Source of the DNA: Zymoseptoria tritici IPO323
Lineage: Eukaryota; Ascomycota; Dothideomycetes; Mycosphaerellales; Mycosphaerellaceae
Length of the DNA: 64,000 nt
NCBI RefSeq assembly: GCF_000219625.1
Contig: NC_018215.1
Coordinates: 186,001 to 250,000 of the forward strand
Direction: 5' to 3'
Position numbers and translations under genes: made by a program. A model generated the notes under the pieces. That model made no database searches and was not told the DNA's origin. It saw nothing but the letters and a program-made list of their open reading frames with translations. The first letter of the stretch is position 1, and each line of letters starts with the position of its first letter. Positions 14,644-57,330 of this stretch are shown piece after piece.

Positions 14644-16047
14644 TCAGATCCACCAAAAGCTCACACTAAAGCTCGTCGTCGCACTCTCCACATAATGCCA
14701 CCAACCCAGCGGCACGTACAGTGAGTCTCCCGGTCCCAGCATCGCTTCGACATACCGAGCCTCTTCTGCATGCGGGAATTCGACCTCATGACTTTTCCTC
14801 GCCTGCTTGAAGTCTTCTGCTCTGACCTCATGCTTCCCAATCGCCGGTCTCAGAAGCTGTACATCAATTCCAGACGTATTACTCCCATCTACACCCATCC
14901 CATCTTTTCCTCTTGGGTACAACCTCTCTCGCTCCTCAGGCGGACACAAGCGGATGTACTTCCATCCAACAACCTGACAGAACAGATTATGCCACGGATC
15001 GGTGTGAAGTGGCGTTTTGGTCCCAGCTGGGCCGAGCCAGGCGTTCATTCGCGGTGCCTCGCCGTGGTGTGGAAGAGAAGTGGCGAGACCTGGAGTTTGA
15101 AGTGCGGCACCTATGGATGGAGGCGGAGAGACGGTAAGGAGAGAGGGTGACATGATATCCCGGGCGAGGGACGGTATGTGTGCGAAAAGGTCGTGTTGGG
15201 CGAGGTAGGCAACTTCTTTTGGAACGTGCCCTGAATCTCGTGCATGGCTCTCGAGTGGACCGAGGTAGGTGTCTGCAAATTGGCCGAATGTGACTATCTT
15301 CTGAGACCAGTCTTGAGAGGTGTAAGACGAACCAATCTCGATAGGAACAAGTCGAAGGCCGCCCATCGTACGGTGGTGGAGATATCCCAGATCTCGCCAG
15401 AGATGAAGAGCAGGCCAGTCTGACAGGAGGTCTGGGATTATGATGGGATGTGGCGGCTGACAAGTGGTGAGGTACTCGAAGAAGCCATCACGATCGAAAG
15501 ACTTCCTGGTACGGGCGATTGGGCTGGACGTCTGGAGAGCCGGAGGAGGGCCAACGTGGAAGAGCTGTGGCTTCGCATTGCTGTTGCACTGCTGCGCTAT
15601 CGGCTCCAGTTCCTCCAAAAGGACATTGATCACTTCTCGACGGGCAGGAGCCCCAGCAATGATGATGGCACGATCAAGCACAGCAATGACTTCTGCCAGC
15701 CATATCTTGAGAGCATCTTCGTCTGCGCTCGGTGGCTGTGATGGGAGCAGACAAAACACGACATGGAGGCTGACCTCCTCAAACAGTCTCAGCCAGCAGA
15801 CGTCGACTTCGTCTGCTTTTCTGGAGTAGAGCATTCGATGTGCCTCTCGCAGAACTTCTCTCGGTCGAATAGCCAGGGCGGAGAGAAGAGCGTTCCCACA
15901 TCTTAGTATAGGATCGTCTCCTGGATGCGGTCGAGTCAACTGTTCTTGAAGGAATCGCTCAGGACATGTTCCAATTTGTCCCGGAGATGAGGGGGAACTC
16001 TCATCGTCGTCGTCGTCGAGGTCCATAGGCTCCAAGGGCATGGCCAT
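14644..16047 (-). CDS. JmjC-domain oxygenase (JMJD5/KDM8-like)
   Basis: Predicted Fe(II)/2-oxoglutarate-dependent hydroxylase or demethylase. Single exon, 467 aa, from a clear ATG at 16047 to TGA at 14644. The N-terminus has an acidic run (LDDDDDE) and a helical region; the cupin domain runs from FDRDGFFEYL to the C-terminus. Metal-binding residues are visible as HTD in PLHTDPWHNLFCQVVG and the distal His in GWWHYVESATTSFSVSFWW. NAWLGPAGTKTPLH and GWKYIRLCPPEE match the JMJD5 subgroup rather than histone demethylases such as JHDM. The YLAQHDLF...IPSL stretch also fits. Divergent from CCT3 with a 446-bp spacer. Confidence 0.93.
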   Translation of the reverse strand: MAMPLEPMDLDDDDDESSPSSPGQIGTCPERFLQEQLTRPHPGDDPILRCGNALLSALAIRPREVLREAHRMLYSRKADEVDVCWLRLFEEVSLHVVFCLLPSQPPSADEDALKIWLAEVIAVLDRAIIIAGAPARREVINVLLEELEPIAQQCNSNAKPQLFHVGPPPALQTSSPIARTRKSFDRDGFFEYLTTCQPPHPIIIPDLLSDWPALHLWRDLGYLHHRTMGGLRLVPIEIGSSYTSQDWSQKIVTFGQFADTYLGPLESHARDSGHVPKEVAYLAQHDLFAHIPSLARDIMSPSLLTVSPPPSIGAALQTPGLATSLPHHGEAPRMNAWLGPAGTKTPLHTDPWHNLFCQVVGWKYIRLCPPEERERLYPRGKDGMGVDGSNTSGIDVQLLRPAIGKHEVRAEDFKQARKSHEVEFPHAEEARYVEAMLGPGDSLYVPLGWWHYVESATTSFSVSFWWI

Positions 16048-16493: not shown

Positions 16494-18162
16494 ATGCAGG
16501 CTCCAGTGGTAGTGATGAGTAGGTCCTCAATATACCACAGATCAATACACATGAGACTGACACGCCACAGACACGGCAACAGGTGACCGCAAGACTGGCC
16601 GGCAAGCGCAAACCTCGAACATCACCGCCGCGAAGACCGTCGCCGACATCATCCGATCATGTCTAGGACCAAAGGCCATGCTGAAGATGCTGCTGGATCC
16701 CATGGGAGGAATTGTCCTGACTAACGACGGCCACGCCATTCTCCGTGAGATCGAAGTCGCCCACCCTGCAGCAAAGAGCATGATTGAGTTGGCACGGACA
16801 CAAGATGAGGAGGTTGGCGATGGCACCACGACTGTGATCATTCTCGCGGGAGAGATTCTCGCCCTGTCCCTACCACAACTCGAGCGCAACATCCATCCCG
16901 TTGTGATTATCCAAGCCTTCAAGCGTGCACTTGCCGACGTCATCAAAGTCATTCAGGACGTCTCCATTCCTGTGGACATCAACGACAACGAAGTCATGCG
17001 AAATCTCATCTCGACATCCATCGGTACGAAATTCACATCGCGCTACTCAGACCTGATGTGCGATCTGGCGCTACAGGCAGTGCGGACGGTCAGCCATGAT
17101 GCAGGCGGTGGCAAGAAAGAGGTGGACATCAAGAGATATGCGCGTGTGGAGAAGGTGCCGGGAGGAGAGATCGAGGACTCCTGCGTGCTGGACGGCGTAA
17201 TGCTGAACAAGGACATCACCCACCCAAAGATGCGTCGCCGGATAGAGAACCCTCGCATCGTCCTCCTGGACTGCACCCTTGAATACAAAAAGGGCGAGTC
17301 CCAAACAAACATCGAAATCAGCAAGGAGGAAGACTGGAACCGCATCCTACAAATCGAAGAAGAGCAAGTTCGGGCCATGTGCGACGCCATCATCGCCGTC
17401 AAGCCGGATCTGGTCATCACCGAAAAGGGTGTCTCCGATCTTGCGCAACATTTCCTCCTCAAACATAACATCACCGCCCTGCGTCGTGTCCGCAAATCCG
17501 ACACCAACCGCGTGGCCCGCGCTACTGGCGCAACAATCGTCAACAGTGTCTACGATCTCGCTGAGAGGGACGTCGGAACACACTGCGGCCTCTTTGAGAT
17601 CTCCAAGATCGGCGACGAGTACTTCACCTTCCTGACAAAGTGCAAGGACCCCAAAGCATGCACCATCCTTCTCCGCGGACCATCCAAAGACATCCTCAAC
17701 GAGATCGACCGCAACCTCCTCGACGCCATGTCCGTGGCTCGAAACGTCATCTTTCATCCATACCTCTCTCCCGGCGGCGGCGCCACTGAAATGGCTTGCG
17801 CGGTCCGTCTCTCGCAAATGGCAAAAGGTGTTGAAGGTGTACAGCAATGGCCGTACAAGGCGATCGCAGAGGCGATGGAGGTCATTCCGCGCACGCTGAT
17901 CCAGAACGCTGGTGCATCTCCCATTCGCGTTTTGACTCAACTGAGAGCGAAGCACGCGGAAGGTGGCAGTACGTGGGGTATTGACGGTGATGCGGGTAAA
18001 GTGGTGGACATGAGGGACTTTGGCATTTGGGAACCGCAAGCTGTGAAGCTGCAGAGCGTCAAGACTGCGGTGGAGAGTGCATGCTTGTTGTTGAGAGTGG
18101 ACGACATTGTGGGCGCGAAGAGTGCGGCTGGAGGTGGCGGCGGAGGTGGTGGAGAGGACTGA
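16494..18162 (+). CDS. cct3: T-complex chaperonin subunit gamma (CCT3/TCP-1 gamma)
   Basis: Subunit of the cytosolic CCT/TRiC chaperonin that folds actin and tubulin. Exons 16494-16518 and 16571-18162 with a 52-nt intron (GTAGGT...CACAG); joining ATG-A to AC-ACG yields MNTATGDRKTGRQ, matching the conserved gamma-subunit N-terminus. Product 538 aa, the normal length. Visible group II chaperonin motifs: LGPKAMLKMLLDPMGG, TNDG, GDGTTT (residues 91-96) for ATP binding, GTKF, and GGGATEMACA with WPYKAIAEAMEVIPRTL near the C-terminus. The tail is a glycine run ending GED, as in other gamma subunits. Housekeeping gene, a useful anchor for synteny. Confidence 0.97.
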
Positions 18163-39602: not shown

Positions 39603-41410
39603 ATGTATAGGGTAATAGCTAGTCGCGTTACTAGGGAATAAATTATTAATATATTTTAAGGTATTTAAAGTTTTTACTTAGAGAGAGATAATATCTATAA
39701 CATGTTAGACTATATATATAGAATATAGGTACTAGTGCCTTATATCCCGGTCCTAGATATTATATAGCTAGTTACGTTATCCTAAAATAAGTTTTTAATG
39801 TAATTTAAGTATTTTATGTTTTTTATTAAAAGGAGATAATATCTATAACATGTTAGACTATATATTTAGTATCTAGGTATCTGCGCCCTAGATCCCGGTC
39901 TTAGATATTATATAAGTAGCCGCGTTACTAGGGAATAAGTAAATAACATAATTTAAGTATTTTACGTTTTTTGTTTTAAGGGAATAACATCTATAACATG
40001 TTAAACTATTTATATAACATCTAGAGACTAAGGCCTTAGATCCCGGTCTTAGATGTTATATAAGTAGTCGCGTTATCCTAAAATAAAGACTTTACGTAAT
40101 TTAAGTATTTTACGTTTTGCGTTTAAAGGGGACAACATCTATAACATATTAGACTATTTATATAACATCTACCTACTTACGCTTTAGATCCCGGTCTTAG
40201 ATGTTATATAAGTAGCCGCATTATAAAGACATTAATAATTTATATAATTTAAGTATTTTACATTTTTTACTTTATAGGGATAACATCTATAGTATATTAG
40301 ACTATTTATATAATATCTAGGTACTAGGAACTAAGAAACTAGTCTTAGATGTTATATAGCTAGTAGCGTTATCCTAAGATTAACAATTTACGTAATTTAA
40401 GCATTTTACGTATTAAGCTAGAATAAGATAATATCTATAACATCTAAGACTATATGTATAACATCTAGACCCTAGAGCCGTAGATCCTAGTCTTAGATGT
40501 TATATAAGTAGCCGCGTTATCCTAAAATAAATAATTTACGTAATTTAAGTATATTACGTTTTTAGTCTAAAGATAACTACATTTATAACATCTAAGACTA
40601 TATATATAATATCTAGGTACTAAGGCTTTAGATCCTAGTCTTAGATATTATATAAGTAGTCGCGTTATTAAGAATTTAAGAATTTACGTAATTTAAGTAT
40701 TTTTTATTTTTTGTTTAAGGACGACTATATCTATAATATATTAGACTATATATATAGTATCTAGGAACTAAGGCCTTAGATCCTAGCCTTAGATATTATA
40801 TAGCTAGCTACGTTATAAAGGAATTAATTTCTAGTATAATTTAAGTATTTTACGTTTTTAGCTAGAATAAGACAACATCTATAACATCTAAGACTATATA
40901 TATAATATCTACGTACTAACGCTCTAAATCCCGGTCTTAGATGTTAATAGCTAGCCGGGTTATTTAGAAATTATTAATTTACGTAATTTAAGCATTTTAT
41001 ATTTTAAGGCTAAAGACAACTATATCTATAATATGTTAGACTATATATATATTATCTAGGTACTAAACCCCTAGATACCGGTCTTAGATGTTATATAGCT
41101 AGTCGCGTTATTTAGAAATTAATAATTTACGTAATTAAAGTATTTTTTGTTTTTAAGGCTAAAGATAGCTATATCTATAATATATTAGACTATATATATA
41201 ATATCTAGGTACTAAGGCCTTAGATTCCTATCTAAGATATTATATACCTAGTCGTACTTATTAAAATAAGGTAAGTTACGTAATTTAGGTATATTACGTT
41301 TCTAGTCTAAAGACAACTATATCTATAATATATTAGACTATATATATAATATAATAATTAAGACGCCGGTCTTAGATATTATATAGCTAGTCGCGTTATT
41401 ATAAGGCTAG
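39603..41410. repeat. 148-bp satellite array, about 12 copies, RIP-mutated
   Basis: The phrase TCTTAGATRTTATATA recurs at 39751, 39899, 40047, 40195, 40343, 40491, 40639, 40787, 40935, 41082, 41231 and 41370, that is every 148 bp apart from a few single-base shifts and a short last unit. Each unit also carries a G/C island such as AGCCGCGTTAT, a TACGTAATTTAAGTATTTTACG block and ATCTATAACAT.TTAGACTAT. Copies differ mostly by C/T and G/A. It starts abruptly at the composition boundary and ends at the Gypsy element. Confidence 0.92.
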
Positions 41411-41437
41411 TAAGGTTAATACTAATAATATACTACG

Positions 41438-44400
41438 GAAAGGGACTAATCTATAGAGCTAGCTCTAAACGCTTAGTTATTAGCTAAGGTTCCGTCTTAT
41501 ATCTCGAGTCCTTCCGACATACCTTAGATAGCTACCTATTGTTATACCCCTTTTCTTACTTACTAGTAGATAATATAAGACATACTCTACGCTTTATCCT
41601 ATTACCTATAGTAATATAGCGATAGTAATATCGTAAGGTATATATATAGTAACCCTCTAAAACTAACTACCGAGTATATAAATTAGAGTTTTTATAGGAC
41701 CCTAATATATATAAGAAAGAGTAGTAACGACATTACGATTAAGAGATAGTTATTATAGATTATTTAGGATTATTAAGAATATATAGATACTACGAATTAT
41801 GTTTATTACGGAGTTTAAGATCTAATAGCGTAGTTTATAGTACTAGTTTTAAGATTTAGCGATATACGATACTAGCGTCCTTTTAGCGTTCCTTTATTAC
41901 TATTTATAGCGATAGTTAGAATAGTATATAGAGTAAAGCTAGAATTAAGTTACTACGTTATTACTATTAAGCCTCCTTATTAGTTATATCTATATTAATC
42001 TTTTACGTCTTAATAATCCGCTCGTTTAGGCTTTACTAAACGTAGTTTATTAAACCCTCTATAAGCGCCGGTTACTTAGTCGCTATTAAAGACACCTCGT
42101 AAGTTAGCTTCTTCGTTATTAATTATACTATAGGTACCGAGTAAGAGAGACTTATAAACTATACCTCGGAAACTAGAGCGGGTAGTCTACCTATTATCTC
42201 TAGTAACACTGCCGCCTCTATATTTATTATCCTTTATATAAGTAAAGTCCCTAACGCTATAGCTACGAGCGATATTATAGCTAATACCTCTAATAGCCTT
42301 ATACGAAACTATTCTAACTTAGGATCCGATACTAGTCCTTTTACTAGCGCTAATTCTTCTACTATAGCTAGTAGCGGTCGTTATAGCCGCTCTACTAACT
42401 AAGGTTAAGTAGTTTACTAGTAATTAGGATACTAGGAGGTAGATAGTACTTATTTAAGAGATAGTAGTAGTCTACTAATATAAATAATAATTATATATAA
42501 TAGCTAGAGGATTTTAATATTATAATAGATAGTAAGGTAGTAGACTAGTTTAATATAGCGCTTAAGTAATTACTTAACGTACTAACGTAGGAATTAGTCG
42601 ATAAGGTTACTAGAGAATTCCTTAAGAAGTAGTAGACTAAGTTATCTACCGACCCTACTACTACTATTAAGTAGATTACGAATCTTATGTAGGGTAACGA
42701 TAAGTCGCTAAAGGACTATAGTAATAGAGCTAATATCCTCCTTTATATAGCTAGAGTTACCGACTTAACTAATAATATTAGCCCTAGATCCGGCGTCCTT
42801 AATATTATAATTATATACTTCTATAAGGGCCTTTATAATAGATGTCTAAGAGTGCTCGTTCTAAATAAGGTAGCTCCTATAACACTTTAGTCTATAGTCG
42901 TAAAGATCGAGGCTAGTTATCGCTAAATAGAAGTAAACGAGCGACTATAGCGTAAAGAGTAGACTTAGTAAGAGCGTAAACTACTATCTAAATATATAAC
43001 CCTTACTTAATAAGGTAGGCTAATCCTACTAGACCTCGAGCTCCGCATTATCTTAATTACTAATACTAGATTTAAGAAGTTATCGATAAAGACTATAGTA
43101 TATACGGAGTTATTAAAGATCCTTTAGTAATAGTAGTAGTAGTAGTTATAATATTACTTACTAACTCTACTACTACTACTAAGAGGGCAATCGCTATAGG
43201 ATAACTAGTAGTAACTATAAACTCTACCGCGTTAGACCTTACTATAGTAGTAGTAGTAGTAGTAACTATACTAGTCTCTATATATACTATCCGCTTCTTA
43301 GTAGTTCCGCTAATAGTCTATAAGCCGTTAAGGGTCCTTCTAAGGGAACTAATAACTACGCTAAGATCCTAGTACTAGCTAGCTACTCCCTCTATTTTAC
43401 TACGAAGTACTAAGAATAACGAAGAAGAAGCACCTCGACTATAATCTAACTACCTCTTTAATCCCTATTATTAATAGCTCCCTAATCTACCGCTATTTAT
43501 CTAATTCTCTATACTATATATATAGCTAGCGTAGTTATAAACTAAGAAACTATCTAAATAAGCTTATATAGCTATAGGAGTAGGAGTTTATATATAACCT
43601 TATAGAGGTATAGGCTAAAGAATATAGAGCCGACGTAGCTTCTAGACGCTTCGTTCTATTTAGTTAGCGCTAGCAAACTTAGTAATAAGGCTAGTAGCCG
43701 TAATAAGGATACCGCTTAAATACTCTACTAGCTACTATAATAAGTACGGGAGTATAGTAATCTTATTATTAACGCTAGGCCGGAGCGAACGTAATATATA
43801 TAGGAACGCCTTAATCTATACCGTAGTCTATTACCGAATACGAGCTTCTCGTAGACTTAAAGTTCTATACTACGCTAGCCTAAACCTTAAGCGTTAACTA
43901 ACTTAATACGAGTAATAGGGTTACTAAGCTTTATAAGGAAACTAAGGAAGAGCGAGAACTTAGCCGATAGCTCTACGGTAGTATGTTCGAGGAAGTAGAT
44001 GTTATAGATCTTATAGGCTATAAACGCGGTCGTAATAAGGATAATATTAGTAAGCGAGAACTAGTAGTAGCTACCTCTTAATACCTAGCGAGGCGTATCG
44101 AGTAGTAGCGTAAAGACTATAAATACTAAGAGGAACTAGATAAGGTAGTACGGAAGTACCGAACGGGAATAGAGAGACAATATACTCGTCGCTAGTAAAC
44201 TCTTTACGAGGAAGCGACGTATAAAGCTTAGTAGTCGCTAGTACGGCCGGTTAAGAAGACTAGTATACGTAAGTAGAAGGCTCTTAAGCCGATTAACGTA
44301 TTTATTAGAAAACTACTACTAGTAGTCTCGGACGTACTAGACGAGACCTATATTAAGGTCCCTATTACCTAGCTCGTATAATAGTTACGCTTCTTTAGAG

Positions 44401-47400
44401 ACGGAGCTAAGAGCTACCTAAGCTAACTACGACAACGCCGAGCTAGTAAGACTAAGAGAGTAAGATATAATAATAAGTAGGATAAGGATAAGGATAAGCT
44501 CTTCGACATATCCGCCTATATCCGGGCTATAACTAATATACTACTACTACTAACCTTATAACTACCGCCGACCTTACGACTAGTAGCGCTAGCCCCTACG
44601 AACGTACCTTAATAGAACAAAGCAACTTAGCGAGTAGGACTAGTATAATACGTAGGAGATACTATCTTCCCTATAACCGAGGCTTAATACTATACGAATT
44701 TACCCTTCTAGGCTAGTGCTATAGATATAGATAATCCTAATACCCTCGTAATAACTATTTCGGCTATATTAATTAGAGCCGCTAAAGAGACGCTCAAGGA
44801 TATATAGGCAGATATCCTAAGGATCTAAGCTAGTAGCAAAGCGATAGTAGAAGCTATTAGTACGGATATCCTCGCCGACATTAAGCGGTAGACTAAGCGT
44901 AATACGGAAGATAAGGCGTTCGGCCTTCTAATAACCCTTATTAACGTTAATACTAATTAATTAGTAGATATACCTCGTAACTAAGTACTCGTAGACACCG
45001 GAGCCGACATTAACCTTATATACCCTTATCTTCGTAAGGCTATAAGGCTACTATTATATAATAGTAGTATACGGTTCCCCTCGATGTTAATAAGCGTTAT
45101 AGGTAGTAAGATATATAAGCTCCCTTATTTTATAGTATTCGATATAAACATCCGAGGAGTATAGCGTTTAATATAGGCATTCGTATGCCCTATTAAGAAG
45201 ATAGGCTCTTAAAAACTATTAATAATCCTTAGACTTCCCTTACTTTATAAGCTTAACGCTATTATTAACATCCGTAAAGGCACTATTTAGATTAGAGACC
45301 CTACGTATAAGAAGGTCGTCGTACTTAAGGTACTAGCTTAACTATTAGTCGTACCTAAAATTAAGGTGCGTACTAAGGACGTATATATACTGTTCGTACT
45401 ATTAGACGAGGATTCCGATAGTAATAAGGACGAGGAGATAGAAGATGCGAGTAACGATAAGTATAGCGATACCGATAGTAATAAGGATTTTTATTAAGTC
45501 TACCTTACAATAAGAAACTACGGACTATTATTACTATAGTTAATACTATTACTACGTAGGAAACTAATACGATATTAGTTATAAAGAGTAACACTAAGGG
45601 TTTAGTTATAAAGAGCAATATCGAGGATTTAGTTAAGAAGGGCAATACTAGAACAATAACTCCTTACGCTAGAATAGTAATACCATTACTAAGAATTAGC
45701 TCCGTACTAAATATAGAGCTCGCGCTCGCTAAAAACAAGGCTACTAGCCTTACCGAGTTCGTTCTATCCTCTACCGACTATATGTTCCCTACCTACCGCC
45801 GTCTAAAACCTCGTACTATCGACATAACTTAATCTATAGACATACTCGCGGCGTAGGCAAAGGTAGTAAAGGTAGGACTCGGTCTAGTAATACCGAAAAG
45901 CGATATATATAAGGTCCTTTTAATACTATAGACCTATCGAGACCTTAGATTATTAGGACTCGAGGACCTTAGACCGCCGACCGACCTTCTTATCTACCGA
46001 GTTTACCTAAAGAATAGTACCCCGACTTACTACGCGTAGCTACGCTATATAACTATATAGAAGGAATAGTAGCTACGGAAGTTCGTAACTAAAGGGATAT
46101 AAGCTAGTATATATAAGCGTACGATAGTCGCGAATAGTAAACTATTACTATAGTAGTTAGATCTAGTTATAGTTAGTAAGGACAATCCGGACGGCATAAG
46201 GCTAACGTTTAATTACTATAACGTCTACGAAGAACTAGCTAGATTATAGATATCGCTCGTAGCCGCTAACTACGACTTCCTCTTAAGATTTAGCTATAAC
46301 GTCTTTAGCTTCTTCGACCTTAAAAACGGGTATTAGGGAGTTAAGGTATATAAACCTAATTATAAGTACCTCGCGTTCTATATCCCTAACCTTAGCTAGC
46401 TATAGCTAATACGAATACTATAAGGCGCACGCTTATTAGCTTATACGTTTAATAAGTTAGGGCAAATCGCCTTTAGACTAATACTACTATTACTAGAAGG
46501 TTAACGTACGCCGAACTACGACGGTTTAGAACCTTCGTTTATTTATAGAATAACCGACACTAGTCCGCCGGACATAATATTCTATATTAACGACATTACT
46601 ACTACTTACTACGACTAGACTATATACTAGAAGTTTATTAAGGAGTAGTTCCTCCCTCGTATTAAATAGGCGATCCTTTATCTATTATAGAAGAAGGTTA
46701 AGCTAGGCTATAATAAGATTATAGTTCTTAGCGAAGTTTATAAAGCCGGTAGAAAGAAGTCTATTAAACCGGAGCGCGTAGCCTATATTATCGACTATCT
46801 AACGCCGAACAGCCTATTAGAAGCTAAAGGCTTCTACGGAGTTGTTTAGATAGTACGGTTATATATTAAGAACTTTAGCGAACTATCGCTACTAATTAGG
46901 GATACGATAAAATAGGACCCTAAGACCTTCGACTAGATAGACATATACTAGCTAGTATTTAACCTACTTAAGGAGCTTATAGTAGTAGTAGTTAAGGTTT
47001 ATAGGCTTAATCTAGTCCTAAGCGTAGAGATATATATTAACGCCTCTAGCCGCGGCTATAGTTACTATATTCGTTAAAAGTAACTAGGAAACCGCTAGGT
47101 ACCGCTACTATACGATTAATTTGCTTTTAACGCCGCCGAACGAAACTATAGAACCTATAAGCGCGAGCTCCGAGTACTTACGTTCTTTATATATAAGTAT
47201 ATATATATATTCTTATCTACCGAGCCTTCTACTATCTATATAGACTATAAGCCTATTATAGGGTTTATAAATGCTTAGGCTAATAGAATCTACGTATAAT
47301 AGTAAGATAAGCTTAGACCTCTTAATATTAAGATTATCTATATTAAGGGAAAGAAGAATGTCGTTACTAACGGACTATTATAGGCGATATAGAATAAGGA

Positions 47401-50400
47401 CTACTTACCGAATAACGCGATAGCCGCGCTAAACTTAGTAATAGATAAATACCGCGATAACCTTAAATTATAGATTTAGAAGAATAGAAAGAGTAGATAT
47501 AAGGACGTATTATAAACTTTTTGCTCCTAGGGGAAGAGAGAGGAATATATTAACTATATAAATAGTGCGAACTCTAGAATAAACGCTAATACTAATACCG
47601 AGACTACCGAGCCCTTATCTATAAACGCTAACGCCGACACTAGTATAGACTTAATTATAACGGAATTCTATAGCCTCGGGGATTACTAGCTATCTACGAG
47701 AGTTACGAACATTAACTTAGCTACTAGTATTATCGAATAGTGCTCTACCTATAATAAACGTCTTCGTAATAGCGACCGTTACTACTACCTCCGCTTATCG
47801 GAGCCTTAGCCTTTATAATAGAATAACTAAGAGCTACGTATAGAATAGGAGCTTATTCGCGAGATAGAACTAGAATAAGAGAAGGAAGGCTACGGATAGA
47901 AGACCTTTAGTCTACCGTAAATAGAGTTATAAACTACGGTTAAGGACAATATAATATATATAGCCTTAGTTATATTACTTAGAGCGGAGATCTATTACCT
48001 ATACTATATTAATAAGCTCGAAGTATATATTAAAGGATTATGTAGTTATAAGTGCTACTTTACTAACTCGGAAGTAGAGGCTAGGGGAGAGGTTTAGTCC
48101 GATAAGACAGTCGCCCTTTAAGAATAGTAGTATAGTAATATCGTCTAATAGTACCGCTATTAATAAAACCCTCTAAATAGGACGGCTACTTAGCTCCGTA
48201 CCTTTAAGGGCTAAATTAAGCATTTCCGCTATTACGCTAGCACTAGAATACTCTATTACTACCCTAAGGGAACGAATAAATACCTACTATATATTAGCCC
48301 TACTTAAGTGCCCCTTATACTTAAGACAGCTTACGACAAGTTTAGCTATTTTAATAGTCGTATTATATATTAGAAACTACTTAACGTCGTTTAGTAGCCG
48401 TCTATAATTAAGGACATTTATAAATATATTAAAGGCTATATTAACTATACGCTTTAGAATATAACTACTATAGTCCCTTAGCCGTATACCGCTCTACCGG
48501 TTATATACCCTTATAAGGTTCTAGAATCGACCTAATAGGTCTATTCGACCCTTAAGATTATAATATAAGGTAGCTACTCTATATTACCGATATATTTATA
48601 CGCTTTAGTAAAGTCGAGCCTTAGAAAGATAAGGAAGCTAAAACTACTAACGCTACGATCTTATAGGTATTCTTACGCTCTACTAAGCTAGTCGCTATCT
48701 TTTATAACCCTAGTAAGGAGTTCGTAATAATAGTAGCGTAGCTTACGTCTTAAGGTATCTATACTAAACCCTTACTAACTATATCTAAGAGACTTACTAG
48801 TACTATAGAAAACATAATTAAGACGATTAGACGTATGCTTAAAAAAGGCCCTAGCCTTATAGTCGATTTACGCGGTTACCCTATTAATATACTAGATTAA
48901 TAGCTAGTCGCAACTACTAAAGTAATAAGAATCGCTATTTTGTTTTTGTTTGTTTGTTTGTTTGTTCCATTTACGTCCTTTTGGAGTCTAAGACTATGTA
49001 GGACGGCTTTGCCCTAAAGGCAAAGCAGTAGATCTAGTTACAATCAGATTCTTTAGTATTCTTTGACCTTAGGGGAAACCCCGTGCCTAAGGCAGGACCT
49101 GCAAGCAGAATCTGCCGAAGGACTTTAAAACAGCGCAAGACAAAGGAAATCAAACGAGTGTTGCAGCCTAGGGCTGCAGAATTTTCGCGCCAAGCTTTTT
49201 GTAGAATTTTCAGCGGATCCTTCCGCTTCGCACGCACGCTGCAAATTCGAAATGCAGTGCAAAAGCACTACAAAAGCAGCTGTCCAACTCGCTGCCCCCT
49301 CTTATCCTTAATATGCCTTTGTAGAACTGCATGCCGCTTCCAAACGCATACAGCTACGCAGGTTAATCGCAGAGTTGTAGATTCCACTAACTGTTCTAGC
49401 TCTTTAAAGTGCACTTTTCCGTAGAGGACCCGAATCTCTAGAGGGAAAGAGGTGCGATTTCAGTTCGGATTTCGAGGAGGTGCGCGTATAGGATAGAGTG
49501 GACTGCTTCTTCTTGTTCGCAACGTAGAGGGCTGTTCGTTCGAATCGTGCCGTTGTTCTGTTATAGCTTGTATTTCGAGGCGGATTTCGAGAAGGATTTC
49601 GGGCGGATTTCGAGAGGTTTTCGAGGAGGTTTCTTCCAGGTTTCTTCCAGACTGTCTTGGTTTCCCTTCCGAGGAAGGTACTTACGACGGCCACCGCGTG
49701 AAGGTGCAGTCTGTTCGGCCGTCTATTTAGAGTCTAAGTAACAACACCGGAAGCCTTATACTCGTTTATCCTTTCTACTATCTCTAGTAAGTAGTTATAA
49801 GGCTACTACTACGCTAACTAACTACGTTACTTTATACTATAAACTAGCTATCTAGTAGCTACTAATACTAAACTACTTCTAGTACTACGAACGCTCTACT
49901 CTTTATGTTTATAAGTAGACCTCGCGAAGCGCTAAGAGCTATATACTACTTTACTTAGTAAGTAAGTAACGTTTAGATAACCGTTCGTTACCGTTGTTCT
50001 ACTCGCTACTCCGTAGAGCCTTACTTTTACTTCTACTTAACTAATTAATATATTATGCAACGGATTACTAAGCAGCATTAAGATTATAATATACAACTAC
50101 TTAGCTATAAGGCCTCGGTTTCTTAGTTAGGTAGTATAATATATACTTTCGGATCTAACGCCTATTATTACTACTATCTCTATATTAATATAACGACCTA
50201 TACTACTACTATACCGACTACTATACTATTCGATCCTTTATACGGCCGGCGCGTAACTATTTAGCTAACTAGCATTATAATTAAGGCATCGTCGCTATAG
50301 AGAGACGACTTAATTAGATAGGGAGTAGAAAGGGACTAATCCGTAGAGCTAGCCCTAAACGCTTAGTTATCTACTAAGTATACCGTCTTAATATCGAGTC

Positions 50401-50459
50401 TATTATACCTACCTTAGATAGACACCTATAACTATACCCTTTATCTTACTTACTATTAC
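41438..50459 (+). mobile_element. Ty3/Gypsy LTR retrotransposon, RIP-inactivated (element 1)
   Basis: Terminal repeats of about 125 bp: GAAAGGGACTAATC through CTTACTTACTA occurs at 41438-41562 and again at 50329-50459, the latter preceded by a purine-rich tract. Between them one plus frame, riddled with TAG/TAA, shows gag-like sequence (42.4-44.9 kb), the protease motif LVDTGADINLIYP (44988), RT block FDLKNGY (46313), RNase H-like sequence with VEIYINASSRGY (about 47025), and integrase-like sequence up to 48930. Protease-RT-RNaseH-integrase order defines Ty3/Gypsy. CA and TG are rare and TA abundant, the RIP signature. A 0.78-kb element interrupts the integrase region. Confidence 0.85.
48935..49720 (-). 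mobile_element. SINE-like non-autonomous retroposon, copy 1
   Basis: About 780 bp on the minus strand: the 5' end (GGCCGAACAGACTGCACC) is at 49720 and the 3' tail is a (AAAC)n run read on the plus strand as TTTG repeats at 48940-48964. Matches copy 2 (55536-56315) end to end in inverted orientation. Its last 220 bp resemble the 3' end of the Tad1-like LINE in this window, the rest does not. It keeps C and G much better than the surrounding Gypsy sequence. A frame with VVSTFLGRETKTVWKKP is conserved but has no ATG, so I do not call a protein. It sits in the element 1 integrase region. Confidence 0.8.
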
Positions 50460-50579
50460 TACCCTTTAGGAAACCGTACTATCTATCTAGCCCCGAAGAA
50501 GACGCACTTAAGAAGTAGGTTAACGATATAGTTACTAAGGGTATAATTCGTAAGTTAACCTCTAAAGTAGCCGCTCTAG
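50460..50579 (+). mobile_element. Gypsy element 2, RT start, left of LINE insertion
   Basis: Plus frame reads KPYYLSSPEEDALKK, VNDIVTKGIIRKLTSKVAAL, the usual start of a Gypsy reverse transcriptase domain, and stops exactly where the LINE tail begins. Continues at 54150. Confidence 0.8.
50568..50579. repeat. Target-site duplication of the LINE, left copy
   Basis: TAGCCGCTCTAG, identical to 54150-54161 on the other side of the LINE. Confidence 0.88.
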
Positions 50580-50610
50580 TTTGTTTGTTTGTTTGTTTGT
50601 TCCATTTACG

Positions 50611-50656
50611 TCCTGTAGGAGTCTATAACTATGTAGGACGGCTGTCTCGCGACAGC
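50611..50656 (-). other. 3'-end hairpins of the LINE RNA
   Basis: On the RNA strand a 6-bp stem GCTGTC/GACAGC closes a GCGA loop, a GNRA tetraloop (50656-50641), and just after it CGTCCT pairs with AGGACG over a 20-nt loop. The same two stems occur in the 780-bp elements. Confidence 0.75.
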
Positions 50657-53546
50657 AGTCTATCTATGTACAATCGTTGTTCTCTCGTATCTCTTAACCT
50701 TAGGGAAAGACCCGTGCCTAGGATAGTAGCAAGCTAGTATCGAAGGACTTTAAAGAAAGACAAATAAGGAAAAGTAAAAGGAGTGTAGGCTAGACGGTCT
50801 CGTCTTCGCCTCTTGCTAGGTGCCAGGACCTAGAAGCAATCTTTGTATCCGAGAGAAAGGTAGTAAGGTGTTTCCGGAGTTCCTTATCTTCTACTATTTC
50901 TAGTAGAGATTGTGCTTGTCGTAGCGGTAGTAGCCTAAATACATCGTAGATAGGGCAGCTACATACGAGGTGTTCTGCTGTTTCTCGTCGTCCGCAAGGG
51001 CAGTCTAGCGTCGTTACGTGTCTAAAGCGATAGAGATAGGACTTTAGGTATCCGTATCCTAATAGGATAGTATAGAAGGCACTAGTTAAAGCGCGTCTTC
51101 CTCCTATTCTATGTTTTCCTAGCGAGCTCTATAGAAATCGACTAAGGTAGCTATTTGTATTCCTAGGTACCTTATTAATCTCCCGTTGTCTTGCTATTTC
51201 GTATCGGGTTTTCCAGACGCTAAAGAGATCGTCTTTTGCGTAGTTAGCCCTCTCGTGTTCTACGAAATGCTTGTATTGTCGGAGTCGATAACAGAGTAGT
51301 TGTATCTGTGTTCTCTGTCGTTTTTGCGGAAGTATCTCTCTCGAGTCCTCGTGTCGGACTTCTCGCGTATCCGAAGGCGCGCTTTAGATAGCGAGTCTTA
51401 CGGGGTAGTTTTCGGGTAGCTTTGCTGCGCGTAGAGAGTATAAAATTGACTATCTCTCTAGGCGTAGATCCGGGGGGAAGAGATTTAACTCTACTTCGGA
51501 CGGGACGTTTAGGGCGGTACGGAAAATGCCTAGGATCTTTCTACAAGCTTTACTTTGTAGAGATACTAGAGGTTTCATGCTCTTTTTCGACCGCTACCAA
51601 ACCGGGGCCCCGTAGTCTGCTATTGTAGTAACGCAGGCTAGGTAGATCTTTCTTAACGATATAGAAGACAGACCGCGTTCGGTATTTGCTAGTCTTTCTA
51701 ATCGATAGAATGCTGCTTATGCTTGTGCCGATCTTATTGCAATGTGCTCCTTAAAGGTAAGACCGGCATCTAGCTAAATCCTAAGCTACCTTATCGCTTT
51801 CTTCGCTAGGCGAACAATATCGCCGTTTAGAAGAATTACCGGGCAATCGGACCCTTTCCCTTTCGAGAAGTGTACTAGGTCTGTCTTTACTAGGTTAAAA
51901 GCAATCGAGTTCTTCTTTCCTAGGTCTATTAGCCTTCTTGCCTTATGTTCTAGTACCTTAGAGTTCTTCTTAAGGGACGTAGACGAGGTAGATAGTCTAA
52001 TGTCGTCGACGTAGGAACTAGGAGTAACTCCTTATAGCGAGAAGGATATATCGCGCGTATAGATAAGAAAGAGGATAGGAGACATCGGGCTGCCTTGCGG
52101 AACGCCGATCTCTACGTCCTGGAATTCCTGTATCTGTCCGTCGAATGCTATTCATAGGCGTCTATTGCTTATAAACGACTAAACCTAATGTATAAGGCTG
52201 TGCGGAAGCCTTAACTGGATTATTATTCTTAACAGTCGGTTCTTTGCAATGTAGTCGTATGCTCCTCTTACGTCGAGGAAGATAACCGAAGTCTTCTTTT
52301 TCTTTCTTCGATTCTCCTCGATTTCGTTCGTTAAGAGAAGCACCGTATCGATAGCCGATTTCTTCTTTCGCCCTCCTAACTACGAGTCGTGTAGAAGGGG
52401 CTTCGTCTCTGCGATAATCCCTAGGCGTTTTGCGAGTATTCTCTCGCTAATCTTGCCGAGGTAGTTTAGGAGAGAGATAACTTGGTAGGCCTTAGGGACC
52501 GAATAGTCTGGTTTTCCCGGCTTTGCTAGAACTGCGCCTGTCGCAACTTTCTAGCATTAGGGGTGGTGTCCTTCGTCGAGTAGCCTACTGTATATACGTA
52601 GAAAGGTAATAGGAATAGCGCCGTACGCTTTACTAATAATAGCTTGCGTAATACCGTCTAGGCCCGGCGTTTTTCCTTTTACTATCTTCGTGCTATAGGC
52701 GGCAGCGAGTTCCTCTTCGGTTAGCGTAGTCCAGCCCTAATCCCCGGCTATATACGCTTCCTAACGGCTAGGTAGAGGTTCCTCGGTAGGAGGGCGCGGA
52801 AATAAGGCTTCGGAGAAGGCCTTACATTTCCCCTCGAAAGAATCTTCGTTGTTTATCGTAGGTATCTGTCTTCGGCTGCTATTCCTAGTATAGGACATAG
52901 CTTTAAAGATAGATTTCGAGTCTTCTTTTTCGAGGAAAGCGTTCTAGTAGTTCTTCTTAGCTGTTTTAATAGCTTAGAAGTACTCGTTTCTCGCTTTTGT
53001 ATACGCCTCTTTCTCGTCTAGCGTCGGCGTACGTCCGTAGGTAAAGGTCTGTCTATATGTTCTAGACATTGTACGGCGTAGTGTGCGTAGCTCTCTATTC
53101 TACTAAGGTTTTGCGTAGGCGTGTACTACTTTCTCTGGGATTGCTCCCCGCATCGATTCGGTAATACACGAGGTAAAGGAGTCTGCGATGTCGTCGAGGG
53201 AGTTCGTATAGTTAATAGACGTCGCCTTGCTTATTAGGAGATCTGTAAACAGTTCCTAATCCGCGGAAGCTATATCTAGAACTACTTTCTTCTGTTAGGC
53301 TCGATCTTGCGTGCTAATAAGGTCTATAGATATAGCCTTATAGTCTAAGCCTATCGGAATCGTTCTCTAGTCGATTTCTTTCGTAGATAAGGATCCTCTT
53401 ATAAACGTAAGGTCTAGGACCGACTCTGCGTCTAGGTGCGGCCTATAGAAGGTCCCGACACCTATCGTATTACGTAGAGTAAAGCCCTAGTCTTCTATCT
53501 ACTCTATAAATTCGCGGGCGCTAGTAGTATCCTTTCCCCTCGGATC

Positions 53547-53804
53547 CTAGGACGGGTGTCTAAGGTTAAAGTCTCCTACTAGTAGAGTGTTTAGAAGGAA
53601 CGTATTGCGTAGAGAGTAGAGGCTTCTCTCTGTTGTTCGTCGGTTTTGCAGGTTCTCGGTATCCCGAAGGTCCTTCTCGTTGTAGAGATTAACTATCTGG
53701 ATCTTGTTGCCCTTCTTGTCTAAAATAACAAAGGAAAGTATGTCGCTGTCGTCTAATAAAATAGGAGAGATATTAACGTTAAGTCTTGTGCTAATATATA
53801 GCAT
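53547..53804 (-). pseudogene. LINE ORF2 endonuclease segment
   Basis: Uninterrupted 85-codon part of the EEP (APE-like) endonuclease: MLYISTRLNVNISPILL, DSDILSFVILDKKG, IVNLYNEKDLRD and the active-site block VGDFNLRHPS. It would nick target DNA for priming. Part of a longer ORF2 disrupted by stops. Confidence 0.85.
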
Positions 53805-54149
53805 TGTTCTTGGCCGGATCGTCGAATCCGTAGTCGTTAGGAATAGCTAGTTGTACTCCCGGTGTGCGATAGATCTTGTCTCTTTGTAGCCTGTTATCGG
53901 GTCTTCTATAGTCCACGGTTCCTGGACTAGTAGAAGGTCGGCTTTCTGCTTAACCGCGACGTCTAAGGTAGACTCTGTAGCCTCGATAGATTAGTTAAGA
54001 TTGACGTGGAAAATCCGTAGAGAGTGTTCTAACATGTAGAACGTTCTAGGGGCCTCCCTTTCTGTTGTATACGATCCTTCGCCTTCTCGACTCTTAGGCT
54101 GTCCGCGCCTACGTATAGACGGTTTTGAATAGCCCTTTTTGCCTCCTCC

Positions 54150-54580
54150 TAGCCGCTCTAGTAATTATAGTCTAGAAGCCTAGAGGTAGCCTACGTATCT
54201 ATATCGATTACCGAGCCTTAACTATACTTATAGTTAAGAACCGCTATCTAATCCCCTTAGTTTAAGATACCCTTACTCGACTTAGTAGAAAGAAATACTT
54301 TACTAAACTCGACATTATCGCTACGTTTAATCGTATTAGAATCGTAGCCGGCTACGAACATAAGATAGCGTTTACTACTCGATACGGGTAGTTCGAATGC
54401 CTCGCTATACTATTTAGACTATATAATGCGCTAAGTACCTTTTAGTTAGCTATTAACTACGCCCTACGTAAATACCTCGATAATTTCTACTTAGCCTACC
54501 TCGATAATGTCCTTATATTTAGTAATACGCTTAAAGAGTATAAGTAACGCGTCCGTAAGGTTATCGATAGGCTATATAAG
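54150..54580 (+). mobile_element. Gypsy element 2, RT core, right of LINE insertion
   Basis: Continues the RT from 50579: QKPRGSLRICIDYRALTIL, VKNRYPIPL, FTKLDIIAAFNRIRI, FTTRYGQFECL and the active-site region LAYLDNVLIFSNTLKEY, where YLDD has become YLDN (GAT/GAC to AAT, a G-to-A change fitting RIP). Ends where the next LTR begins at 54581. The rest of the element is not in this order nearby. Confidence 0.85.
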
Positions 54581-57330
54581 TGTTAGGGAACGACTAGGGT
54601 ATCGCTGCTCCGGGCCTAAATCGGGCCCGTTCTAGGTCCGATATAGACCCGATATAGACCCGAGGCTACCCTAAGCGAGGCTTAGCGCACATATTCCCTT
54701 TTGTTCCCTTTCGCCTCCCTTCGTTATACTCGGTAGGCAATATAGACATTCGTATACAGACTACTTATACGTGTTAGTTGCTACCTAGTTATACTACCCT
54801 TATAGTATTTTGCCTCTAAACCTACTAAGGAATTAGCCGCACTAAGTACTAGAGTAGGTACTATCGATCCCCGATTTAGTACTAAATTAGAACTAAGAAA
54901 TGCCTCCTAAGAAACCTACTTAATAGCCGGACGGCAACCGAGGCCTAAGTAACGCCCTATCGTTATTAATAAGACTTAGCGATCTACCGGATAATAAGGA
55001 GGACGAGTAGGAAGATATAGGAGGACGATATATAGGGACACCCGATATAGACCTAGAACAGACCCTAACGAGCCCGGGGGCAGACCCGAACACGGATCCA
55101 GACTACCTATAGGTCCCTTAGTACGTTAGAGACTACATCTAGGGACTAAGGTAGGTTTAGATCGTACCTATAATAGCGAAGCAACGAGCGGCGTATATTA
55201 AGGCCTGCTAAGATGCCGCCGCTATCTACGATATAGAATTAGATTTTATTAAGAAAAGAAAGAGAGCTCCTTCTAGCCTACAATTAGTAGAAAGGAAAGT
55301 TAGGCCTAAATCGGACCCGATTTAGAGCCTTCTTAAGTCCGGACTAGGATATATATTAGAGGCCTCCTCCCCGGAGGCTCTTCGTATATAGGTTAGCGAC
55401 TACGAGAACCGCTTCTACTTTTATAACGTTCCGGATAATATAACCGCGAACAACCGGTCTCGACGTACCGCTTAGGCTATCGAACGAGTTAAGCTAAAGG
55501 ACCTCCGCGCTACTATCGTACGCTACTAGGCAGACGGCCGAACAGACTGCACCTTCACGCGGTGGCCGTCGTAAGTACCTTCCTCGGAAGGGAAACTAAG
55601 ACAGTCTGGAAGAAACCTCCTCGAAAATCTCTCGAATCCGCCGAAATCCTTCTTGAAATCCCTCTCGAAAACCTCTCGAATCTGCCCGAAATCCTTCTCG
55701 AAATCCGCCTCGAAACACGAGCTACAACAGAACAACAGCACGATTCGAACGAATAGCCCACGCTACGAACTAGTCCACTCTGCCCTATACGCGCACCTCC
55801 TCGAAATCCGAATCGAAATCGCATGTCCCTTCTCTAGAGACTTCGTCGCCCTCGAAGGAAGCATACATGCACTTTAAAGAGCTAGAACTCGGTAGAATCT
55901 ACAACTCTGCGATCAACCTGCGTAGCTATATGCGCTAGAAGGCGGCATATAGTTCTACAAAGGCATATTGAGGACAAGAGAAGGCAGCGAGTTGGACAGC
56001 TGAATTCGCAGCGTGTGTGCGAAGCGGAAGGATCCGCTGAAAATTCTACAAAAGCTTGGCGCGAAAATTCTGCAGCCCCGGCTGCAGACAACGACACTCG
56101 TTTGATTTCCTTTGTCTTGCGCTGTTTTAAAGTCCTTCGGCAGATTCTGCTTGCAGGTCCTGCCTTAGGCACGGGGTTTCCCCTAAGGTCAAAGAATACC
56201 GAAAAATCTGATTATAACTAGATCTACTGCTTTGCCTTTATGGCAAAGCCGTCCTACATAGTCTTAGACTCCGAAAGGACGTAAATGGAACAAACAAACA
56301 AACAACAAACAAAAAACGCTACTAGGCAGACTACCCCGACGACTACGCCTTAGACGCTATCTTCGAGTAGAGTAACCTTAAGGAGGTGCTCCGCGATTAG
56401 ATTACTCTAAAGGCGACCCGTATAGTAGAGCTCGCGACCTAGTATTAGTACTATAAGTAGCTTAATAACTAGTCCGTAGGCAACTTCTATACCTATATAT
56501 AAGGATTAGAAGCCTGTATAGATGTAGTGCTAATAACGAGCGAGGAAGATAGGTAGAACCGGAAGAGTTTCTACTACTCTAAGCTATTAGAAGACCTCTA
56601 GAAGGAGATTAATAAGAACGAGAAACTCGCTAGTACGTACGACGTAGCGGAGCTTATAGACATCGCATTAATCTACGAGAACGTCTACTTCCTAAAAGGA
56701 CGCTCTAGGGCTCGCGACACTAAACCGAAGAAGGACCCGGAACAGCCCCCGTCCGGCCCTACGAGGGCTACGAATCCGCCCTAGAATCCGAGGGGTCGGG
56801 GCGGAGGCCGACTAGGCTAGAGGGGTAGCTACGGAAACTTCGCCTACTACATAAACGATACGCCCGCTTCCGGCGTTAATCGTATACTAGCGGGGCACGT
56901 TAAGGAGGTAAAAGAGTAGCCTTAGTTAAAGTTATCGTCGTATAACTTAGCTCCCTTAAGCTAGGGCCGAAAATAAGAGGGAAGGAAAGAAGACTAGCGA
57001 TTAACGTCTAGATCCGCGACGGCGACGGTAGGCTCTAAACGCTAATAGCGCTAGTCGACTATAGGGCGTAGATTAACCTCGTCTCCTAATATAAGGTTTA
57101 ATTACTTTAGCTCCCGAGTAATAGAGCCCTAGTACTAAAGGTTAAGTTCTTAAACGACTATTAGATAACAGTCTATAAGGGCTACGACCTAACAGTACTA
57201 GTAAAGGACTTAAACGGGGTGTTATAGGGCAAATAGTACTAAATATAGTTTACGGTATAGCGTAGTTTTAGGTCTTAGCGATATATAGTAGTCGGATTCT
57301 TCCTTTTTTTAAGGATCTAATAATAACATT
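54581..57330 (+). mobile_element. LTR retrotransposon element 3 (putative 5' LTR and gag)
   Basis: TGTTAGGGAACGACTAGGG at 54581 looks like the start of an LTR because it begins with TG and directly interrupts the element 2 RT. A gag-like frame with a start at 54900 (MPPKKPT) runs, with TAG stops, through SLLIRLSDLPDNKEDE, AAYIKACQDAAAIYD, EALRI.VSDYENRFYFYNVP and, after the 55536-56315 insertion, EVLRD, ELIDIALIYENVYFLKGR and a proline/glycine-rich stretch. No protease or RT follows before 57.3 kb. I could not find a 3' LTR. Confidence 0.6.
55536..56315 (+). mobile_element. SINE-like non-autonomous retroposon, copy 2 with 16-bp target duplication
   Basis: 780 bp from GGCCGAACAGACTGC to an (AAAC)n/A-rich tail at 56288-56315, flanked by the direct repeat ACGCTACTAGGCAGAC (55520-55535 and 56316-56331). 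Inside: a degenerate (CTCGAAATCC)n stretch (55615-55720), a region with GCGCGAAAATTCTGCAG, and a 3' segment of about 220 bp resembling the LINE 3' end with both hairpins (stems 56229-56236/56242-56249 and 56250-56255/56276-56281). Compared with the Gypsy gag it interrupts, it is barely RIP-mutated. No start codon precedes the conserved frame. Confidence 0.85.

Follow-up and report, generated by a model that had tools for sequence, protein, structure and literature searches.

How is a short, non-coding repeat that resembles a long interspersed element (LINE) only at its 3' end copied with a constant 5' start? This question is raised by two inverted copies of a repeat of about 0.8 kb in a stretch of 64,000 nucleotides of the fungus Zymoseptoria tritici IPO323 (C4:186001-250000, contig NC_018215.1; the whole stretch is called the window here), between which a 5'-truncated LINE copy is located. 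An earlier note on the window had described the repeat as a 780-bp element of the short interspersed element (SINE) kind that borrows the 3' end of this LINE. From searches of the window and of the genome (39,686,251 bases, 21 contigs), we conclude that the element is very probably a non-autonomous retroposon with a hepatitis delta virus (HDV)-like self-cleaving ribozyme as its head and a mimic of a LINE 3' end as its tail, a reading that draws on predicted RNA structure and on the comparison of copies. The true 5' boundary, the HDV-like ribozyme predicted to begin there, and a second subfamily with another predicted ribozyme had been missed by the earlier note.

A dispersed non-coding family with a fixed 5' end

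The two window copies are 82% identical over positions 1-780, and six inverted arms of 223, 129, 105, 81, 57 and 52 nt are 84-96% complementary between them, in line with the end-to-end match that had been described. Their limits had to be moved: the plus copy starts at 55533 (GACGGCC...) and not at 55536, and the minus copy, first given as 48935-49720, is corrected to 48943-49723 (Table 1). The perfect 16-nt direct repeat that had been seen around the plus copy is there, but it was not all to be counted as target duplication: because the duplication of many other copies ends just before GAC, the window copy is assigned a duplication of 13 nt, with the GAC assignable either way. For the minus copy, no target duplication could be found down to a length of 9 nt. 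A CTCGAAATCC-type tandem is present in the body, as had been reported. The statement that the body has no start codon was wrong, as ATGs occur; the open reading frames (ORFs) are nevertheless short (30-96 aa in the plus copy; the longest ATG-started ORF per copy has a median of 79 and a maximum of 167 codons among 60 sequences, one of them a duplicate), so that the element is still judged to be non-coding.

The genome-wide search that had been proposed as a check revealed numerous copies; their target duplications vary and their 5' start is fixed. With the plus copy as the query, at least 48 matches were obtained (the best 40 of 421 candidates were scored), and two subfamilies were recognized, one with the head of the window copies (type 1) and one with a different head (type 2). 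Complete pattern counts identified 173 type-1 heads (at most 2 mismatches; control 0) and 95 type-2 heads (90 exact and 5 with one mismatch; control 0), i.e., about 270 heads together, and 262 element tails. The flanks were analyzed in 66 elements, 59 of type 1 (one duplicate locus omitted) and 7 of type 2. Target duplications of at least 9 nt were present in 44 of the 59 and 6 of the 7, respectively, with a length of 13 nt in 18 elements, 14 in 21, 15 in 8, 16 in 2 and 25 in 1; several of the 16 elements without a duplication are truncated by the edge of the retrieved stretch or interrupted. Relative to the first base predicted from the head, the duplication abuts in 28 of these 50 elements, overlaps by 1-2 nt in 20 and ends 1 nt short in 2; the insertion start is fixed while the flanks differ among copies.

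On C1-C7, a head, exact or nearly so, lies 682-851 nt upstream of 86 of the 90 exact tails (type 1 in 49 and type 2 in 37), and one of the 4 unpaired tails (L004) belongs to a complete element with an altered first base. An independent, non-coding, SINE-like family with many full-length copies, a common 5' start and a LINE-derived 3' end, as the earlier note had proposed, is supported by these data.

The copies L080, L081, L083-L085 and L119 form a class with ~60-80 nt extra near element position 467-478. The type-2 element L079 (C9:18750-19700) is located within contig-internal, telomere-like CCCTAA repeats, and L055 (C14:280030-280950) is a nested insertion, in which a LINE 5' end starts at position 609 of a type-1 element.

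Two heads with the predicted fold of HDV-like ribozymes

The first 76 nt of the type-1 element are predicted to have the nested double pseudoknot layout of HDV-like ribozymes. The 5' part of the head comprises, in this order, GACGGCC (P1), GAA, CAGACTG (P2), a single C, ACC (P3), TTCACGC (L3), GGT (P3') and GGCCGTC (P1'), and the 3' part GTAAGTA, the hairpin CCTTC-CTCG-GAAGG (P4), GAAACYAAGA and CAGTCTG (P2'), which gives a P1 of 7 bp, a pseudoknotted P2 of 7 bp, a P3 of 3 bp and an L3 of 7 nt. C-N-A-A is the form of the catalytic strand in HDV-like ribozymes, and the strand pair AGUA/GAA resembles a loop-E motif. The putative catalytic C, the A-A that follows it, the extra C between P2 and P3, and AGUA/GAA are each present in all 59 type-1 copies, and the frequent variants of this type occur at sites that are permissive in the model (the N of C-N-A-A, the P4 loop and one position of L3). 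The stem sizes agree with those given for R2 (P1 6-7 bp, P2 at least 5 bp, P3 3 bp, according to the accessible text of PMC3774820). P1 is intact in 56, P2 in 53 and P3 in 58 of the 59 copies; P4 is intact in all of them, and every stem in 51. The cleavage site predicted from this fold coincides with the insertion boundary.

The type-2 subfamily is absent from the window. In the loci L075-L081 the similarity to the window copy begins only at position 173-178, and in the body common to both types a type-2 copy and the window copy align over 336 columns at 79% identity and over 314 columns at 97%. Since type-2 copies match type 1 in the body only, the family has one body and two heads that differ in sequence and share the predicted fold. 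The type-2 head consists of GGYCGGC (P1), GAC, GAGGAA... (P2), P3-L3 (ACC-TGTACGY-GGT, compared with ACC-TTCACGC-GGT in type 1), GCCGGCT (P1'), a P4 hairpin that occurs in three versions, GCYAAG and TTTCCTC. Its P1, P2 and P4 are unlike those of type 1 in sequence, and layout and boundary are identical. GCCAAG or GCTAAG was found at the putative catalytic strand in all 27 type-2 heads examined, and in type 2, too, an additional C was read between P2 and P3.

A descriptor of the fold matched the window twice (both strands), 56 of the 59 type-1 heads, all 7 type-2 heads of the flank set and 19 of 20 further type-2 heads. It had no matches beyond the element heads in 579,742 bases of loci (both strands, LINE 5' ends included) and none in 20 shuffled windows (1.28 Mb), and two sets of 48,000 shuffled heads gave 3 matches (2 of them at the first position) and none, respectively. 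A generic core pattern (ACCTNNWCGYGGT) matched at 331 sites, in comparison with 112 for the reversed control, an excess that is about the number of the known heads and therefore no sign of another large family.

The predicted ribozyme is also the most uniform of the three regions compared. Mean pairwise identity among 58 type-1 copies is 97.6% in the ribozyme (gap-free), 91.0% in positions 77-470 and 92.3% in the tail. Substitutions other than those of repeat-induced point mutation (RIP), counted as departures from the majority with the C of CA and the G of TG excluded, amount to 32/3944 (0.8%) in the ribozyme, 1263/25,025 (5.0%) in the body and 444/9812 (4.5%) in the tail, and TG-to-TA changes to 4.6%, 19.2% and 11.3%, respectively.

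Several observations weigh against a ribozyme head. The descriptor, with its broad ranges, was composed after both heads had been seen, and the copies were retrieved by similarity, so that conserved ones were favored. In Rfam 15 no HDV-type match at E ≤10 was obtained for the window stretch or for 12 loci (the single match, to TMV_UPD-PK3 in a LINE locus with E 8.1, was dismissed as chance). The nested minimum free energy fold of the head is unremarkable (z -1.5, equaled by 12 of 200 shuffles), pseudoknots being outside the model, and P1.1, which in HDV-like ribozymes joins L3 by two pairs to the strand that follows P1, would, judged by eye, comprise one pair and a U-U in type 1 and two pairs in type 2. 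CA-to-TA changes are about as frequent in the ribozyme (11.4%) as in the body (13.8%), with 3.3% in the tail; the 33 such changes in the ribozyme are mostly on the free N of C-N-A-A. A change from G-C to A-U in P4 of type 2 may reflect RIP on both arms and, as RIP can produce such changes, was not counted as support. Finally, 41 of the 127 heads on C1-C7 (29 of 78 type 1 and 12 of 49 type 2) have no exact tail motif downstream; all 4 of those 41 that were inspected are complete elements with variant tails.

Table 1. Coordinates in the window of the two element copies, their predicted structures and the partner LINE
Feature	Position	Strand	Remark
Complete type-1 element, plus copy	55533..56315	+	783 nt including (AAAC)n tail
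Type-1 element, minus copy	48943..49723	-	781 nt, 5' end = 49723
HDV-like ribozyme (predicted)	55533..55608	+	Predicted cleavage just 5' of 55533
Matching ribozyme (predicted), minus copy	49648..49723	-	Descriptor match starting at 49723
P1	55533-55539/55564-55570	+	
P2	55543-55549/55602-55608	+	
Extra C between P2 and P3	55550	+	
P3; L3	55551-55553/55561-55563; 55554-55560	+	
Loop-E-like AGUA; GAA	55574-55577; 55592-55594	+	
P4	55578-55582/55587-55591	+	
Putative catalytic C, then N-A-A	55596	+	
Direct repeat, upstream copy (ACGCTACTAGGCA+GAC)	55520..55535	+	GAC overlaps element start
Direct repeat, downstream copy	56316..56331	+	
CTCGAAATCC-type degenerate tandem	55612..55715	+	Most gapped stretch between copies
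LINE-like 3' region ending in (AAAC)n	56094..56315	+	
3' hairpin GCTTTGCC-TTTAT-GGCAAAGC	56229..56249	+	
Distal 3' stem CGTCCT...AGGACG	56250..56281	+	In predicted folds of LINE and window element
Partner LINE, 5'-truncated copy	50577..54148	-	Flanked by ~12 nt of TAGCCGCTCTAG

The LINE-like tail and the partner LINE

The likeness to the LINE is confined to the final ~220 nt plus the (AAAC)n tail, as the earlier note had observed: from element position 562 onwards, the element and the LINE 3' end are 73% identical over 230 aligned columns (E 7e-31). The rest of the element had no match to the LINE, and its first 560 nt had no credible blastn match in two LINE upstream stretches. Just before CGTCC the LINE has the hairpin GCTGTC-GCGA-GACAGC in 16 of 17 distinct tails (with the loop GCAA in 1), and at this position the elements have GCTTTGCC-TTTAT-GGCAAAGC, GCCTTG-CTTG-CAAGGC, GCCTTG-TTCG-CAAGGC and others. 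A tail was obtained by the anchors used from 40 element sequences (others were dropped). Among the distinct hairpins, 32 of the 37 from elements and all 17 from the LINE are fully paired, a count that leans towards pairing because the best hairpin was picked for each sequence; a first count at a fixed offset had scored 216 out of 280 element pairs as standard, which is low because hairpin length varies. The terminal hairpin is thus kept through compensatory changes, as expected if RNA structure is recognized, and the enzyme of the partner LINE presumably recognizes the element tail.

The partner LINE (the name Tad1 for it comes from the earlier note) is ~5.6 kb long and has 97 heads and 196 tails by pattern, so that its heads are about half its tails, in contrast to the element. 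The two full-length copies that were read begin with ATCGACATCCGC and are flanked by target duplications of their own. In one copy there are a 223-aa ORF that has no match in Pfam, an endonuclease stretch (PF14529, E 1.6e-16) and a reverse transcriptase stretch (PF00078, E 1.9e-30). The reverse transcriptase has fungal relatives (e.g., Clarireedia, 56%), the named ones being mostly plant-associated ascomycetes; the LINE reverse transcriptase at L011:2751-4262 shares 97% identity, across 57% of its length, with a protein of a European Nucleotide Archive (ENA) contig (P0002). The sister species Z. pseudotritici has been reported to lack LINEs (PMC8759822).

Alternative explanations and known relatives

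For the spread of the family we infer catalytic activity, read-through transcription and the use of the partner LINE's enzyme. Transcription from an outside promoter would read through the element and give a long RNA that contains it; the ribozyme would cut just 5' of the first G, so that the released RNA would begin exactly at the element end; the LINE reverse transcriptase would recognize the 3' stem-loops and the (AAAC)n tail, and target-primed reverse transcription would insert a mostly full-length copy and leave duplications of 13-16 bp.

Compatible with this explanation, the element could be a hybrid, with its head from another, perhaps extinct, ribozyme-bearing LINE and its tail from the partner LINE, an origin that we take seriously although we would not bet on it. 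The partner LINE itself has no ribozyme head, and among the short internally deleted elements (SIDEs) of Drosophila the R2/R1 hybrids have an R1 3' end that is preceded by an R2 ribozyme, with 14 bp duplications, according to the accessible text of PMC3414825. On the other hand, no other element with either head was found among the best 40 of 173 and the best 40 of 96 candidates, and the best 40 matches to each head all continue into the element's own sequence.

The 5' fold might instead be a relic or serve another purpose, e.g., in second-strand synthesis or template jumping, for which it could be a landing structure, given that R2 5' ends have been linked to second-strand priming (in the part of PMC3774820 that was accessible). 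We consider this improbable, as the putative catalytic C and the A-A are retained throughout the 59 type-1 copies, non-RIP substitutions in the ribozyme are few, and the predicted cleavage position is the insertion boundary.

Still less probable is a canonical SINE with an internal RNA polymerase III promoter, in which the 5' structure would be incidental. The element is non-autonomous and has target duplications and a LINE-shared tail like such SINEs, its length of 0.7-0.9 kb and many copies would fit a long one, and an internal promoter would equally give a fixed 5' start; the head, however, revealed no tRNA, no 5S or 7SL origin and no polymerase III boxes. No tRNA was found in it; the window stretch had no match in Rfam (tRNA, 5S and signal recognition particle families included), and 9 other element loci had no HDV or small-RNA head by Rfam. 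In one type-1 and one type-2 copy no B box was detected at up to 2 mismatches, the best A-box-like match is in the LINE-derived tail, and TTTT runs, which are typical polymerase III stops, occur inside both copies checked. Moreover, the presence of one fold in two different heads would be a coincidence.

An internal-deletion derivative of the partner LINE, its 5' untranslated region (UTR) joined to its 3' UTR, would account for the LINE-like 220 nt at the 3' end and would follow the route by which R2 SIDEs of Drosophila originated (PMC3414825, accessible text), but this origin is scarcely credible and was rejected, because the two full-length LINE copies start otherwise and with their own duplications, the LINE stretch upstream of the truncated copy has no credible blastn match to the element, and neither of the two LINE 5' ends contains a ribozyme by the descriptor. 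The earlier note had named one finding that would overturn an independent family, a LINE with the entire 780 bp as its own UTRs; the partner LINE, whose 5' end differs, is not such a LINE.

The retroposon with a ribozyme head that we favor is closest to R2 and R2/R1 SIDEs, which, as described in the accessible text of PMC3414825, are likewise short, non-coding elements that begin with an HDV-like ribozyme and end in the 3' part of a LINE; R2 SIDEs also have an unrelated middle part, and the 14 bp duplications of the hybrids compare with mostly 13-16 bp in the element. A primer in the catalytic region of the Drosophila R2 has ACCTCCTCGTGGT, to be compared with the P3-L3 of the element (PMC3414825; the division into P3 and L3 is our own). 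The Drosophila SIDEs sit in rRNA genes and have their ribozyme from R2 (PMC3414825), whereas the copies of the element are dispersed; the element further differs in its ~270 heads, in a partner LINE without a ribozyme and in two heads on one body. In terms of the SIDE definition, the element is a short non-coding sequence that has a 5' ribozyme (by structure only) and ends like a LINE, but internal deletion of a ribozyme-bearing autonomous element was not found, and no other ribozyme-bearing LINE was seen among the best 40 candidates for each head. NARTc, RIME and SIDER of trypanosomatids have a 77-nt head in common with their LINE, which is also a promoter (PMC4035085, accessible text), whereas the LINE of the element has no such head. 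The proposed release-and-copy logic would be the one for which NARTc and the two kinds of Drosophila SIDE provide documented cases.

Variant HDV ribozymes were previously reported from fungi (230 in 26 species, with in-vitro cleavage and widely variable gene associations; PMC5640933, accessible text). Of the three features listed there, type 1 has the additional nucleotide, mostly C in the fungal variants, that separates P2 from P3, and its loop-E-like AGUA/GAA by P4 may correspond to a second, a loop E that replaces part of P4; the loop E is without a counterpart in type 2, and the pair at the cleavage site, typically C-G in the fungal variants, would be G-C in type 1 and G-U in type 2. The main text of PMC5640933 contains no word beginning with "transpos", nor "retrotransposon" or "SINE", and neither Zymoseptoria nor Mycosphaerella is named in it. 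Among fungal SINEs, Mg-SINE of Magnaporthe with its LINE MGL (PMC2104539) resembles the element in its LINE-mimicking 3' end and AfuSINE2-1a (PMC5063351) in its Tad1 tail; according to the accessible text of these two papers, Mg-SINE (472 bp) and AfuSINE2-1a are, unlike the element, tRNA-related, and they are shorter. The mgsr1 of Magnaporthe (800 bp, ~40 copies; PMC5063351) can be likened to the element by its description only. Since libraries of Z. tritici transposable elements include one curated SINE as well as SINE families that are left unclassified (RSX) (PMC7014611, PMC10652580, accessible text), the repeat may already be in a library, and the element may be among these published SINE entries, which are known to us by description only. 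The word "ribozyme" is missing from the main texts of PMC2104539, PMC5063351, PMC7014611 and PMC10652580 and from the other papers on Z. tritici transposable elements that were searched for it, and a literature search, with subscription journals mostly outside its coverage, gave no report joining an HDV-like ribozyme with a fungal SINE-like element.

If our explanation is true, it would provide a concrete job for fungal HDV-variant ribozymes, and a ribozyme head would be a way for a SINE-like family to spread without a promoter of its own. We tentatively suggest, while leaning slightly to the other side, that the scattered variant HDV ribozymes of fungi are largely the heads of promoter-less, LINE-parasitic retroposons, i.e., an exchangeable head module for which any upstream host promoter might be usable and which might have evolved independently of the partner LINE. 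The two predicted ribozymes on one body would represent a natural experiment on the requirements of a retroposon head. As active copies would cut any host transcript that runs through them in sense orientation, the ~270 sites are testable for effects on gene expression.

The window is divided in its composition. A strong RIP-like signature is seen in 32001-64000, and the ratio (CA+TG)/(AC+GT) is 0.11 in 40001-48000 (GC 34%), 0.40-0.53 beyond and 1.17-1.31 in 1-32000. By the same ratio, the two elements (0.99 and 1.02) are far less affected than the LINE copy (0.47) and the flank 54161-55530 (0.19). The RIP-free half includes a gene for a JmjC-type protein (14644-16047, minus strand; PF13621, PF08007), whose ORF (14647-16047) has 100% identity over 467 aa with a protein of Z. 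tritici ST99CH_3D7, and an ORF at 16678-18162 (plus strand) that we take to resemble the TCP-1 chaperonin gamma subunit.

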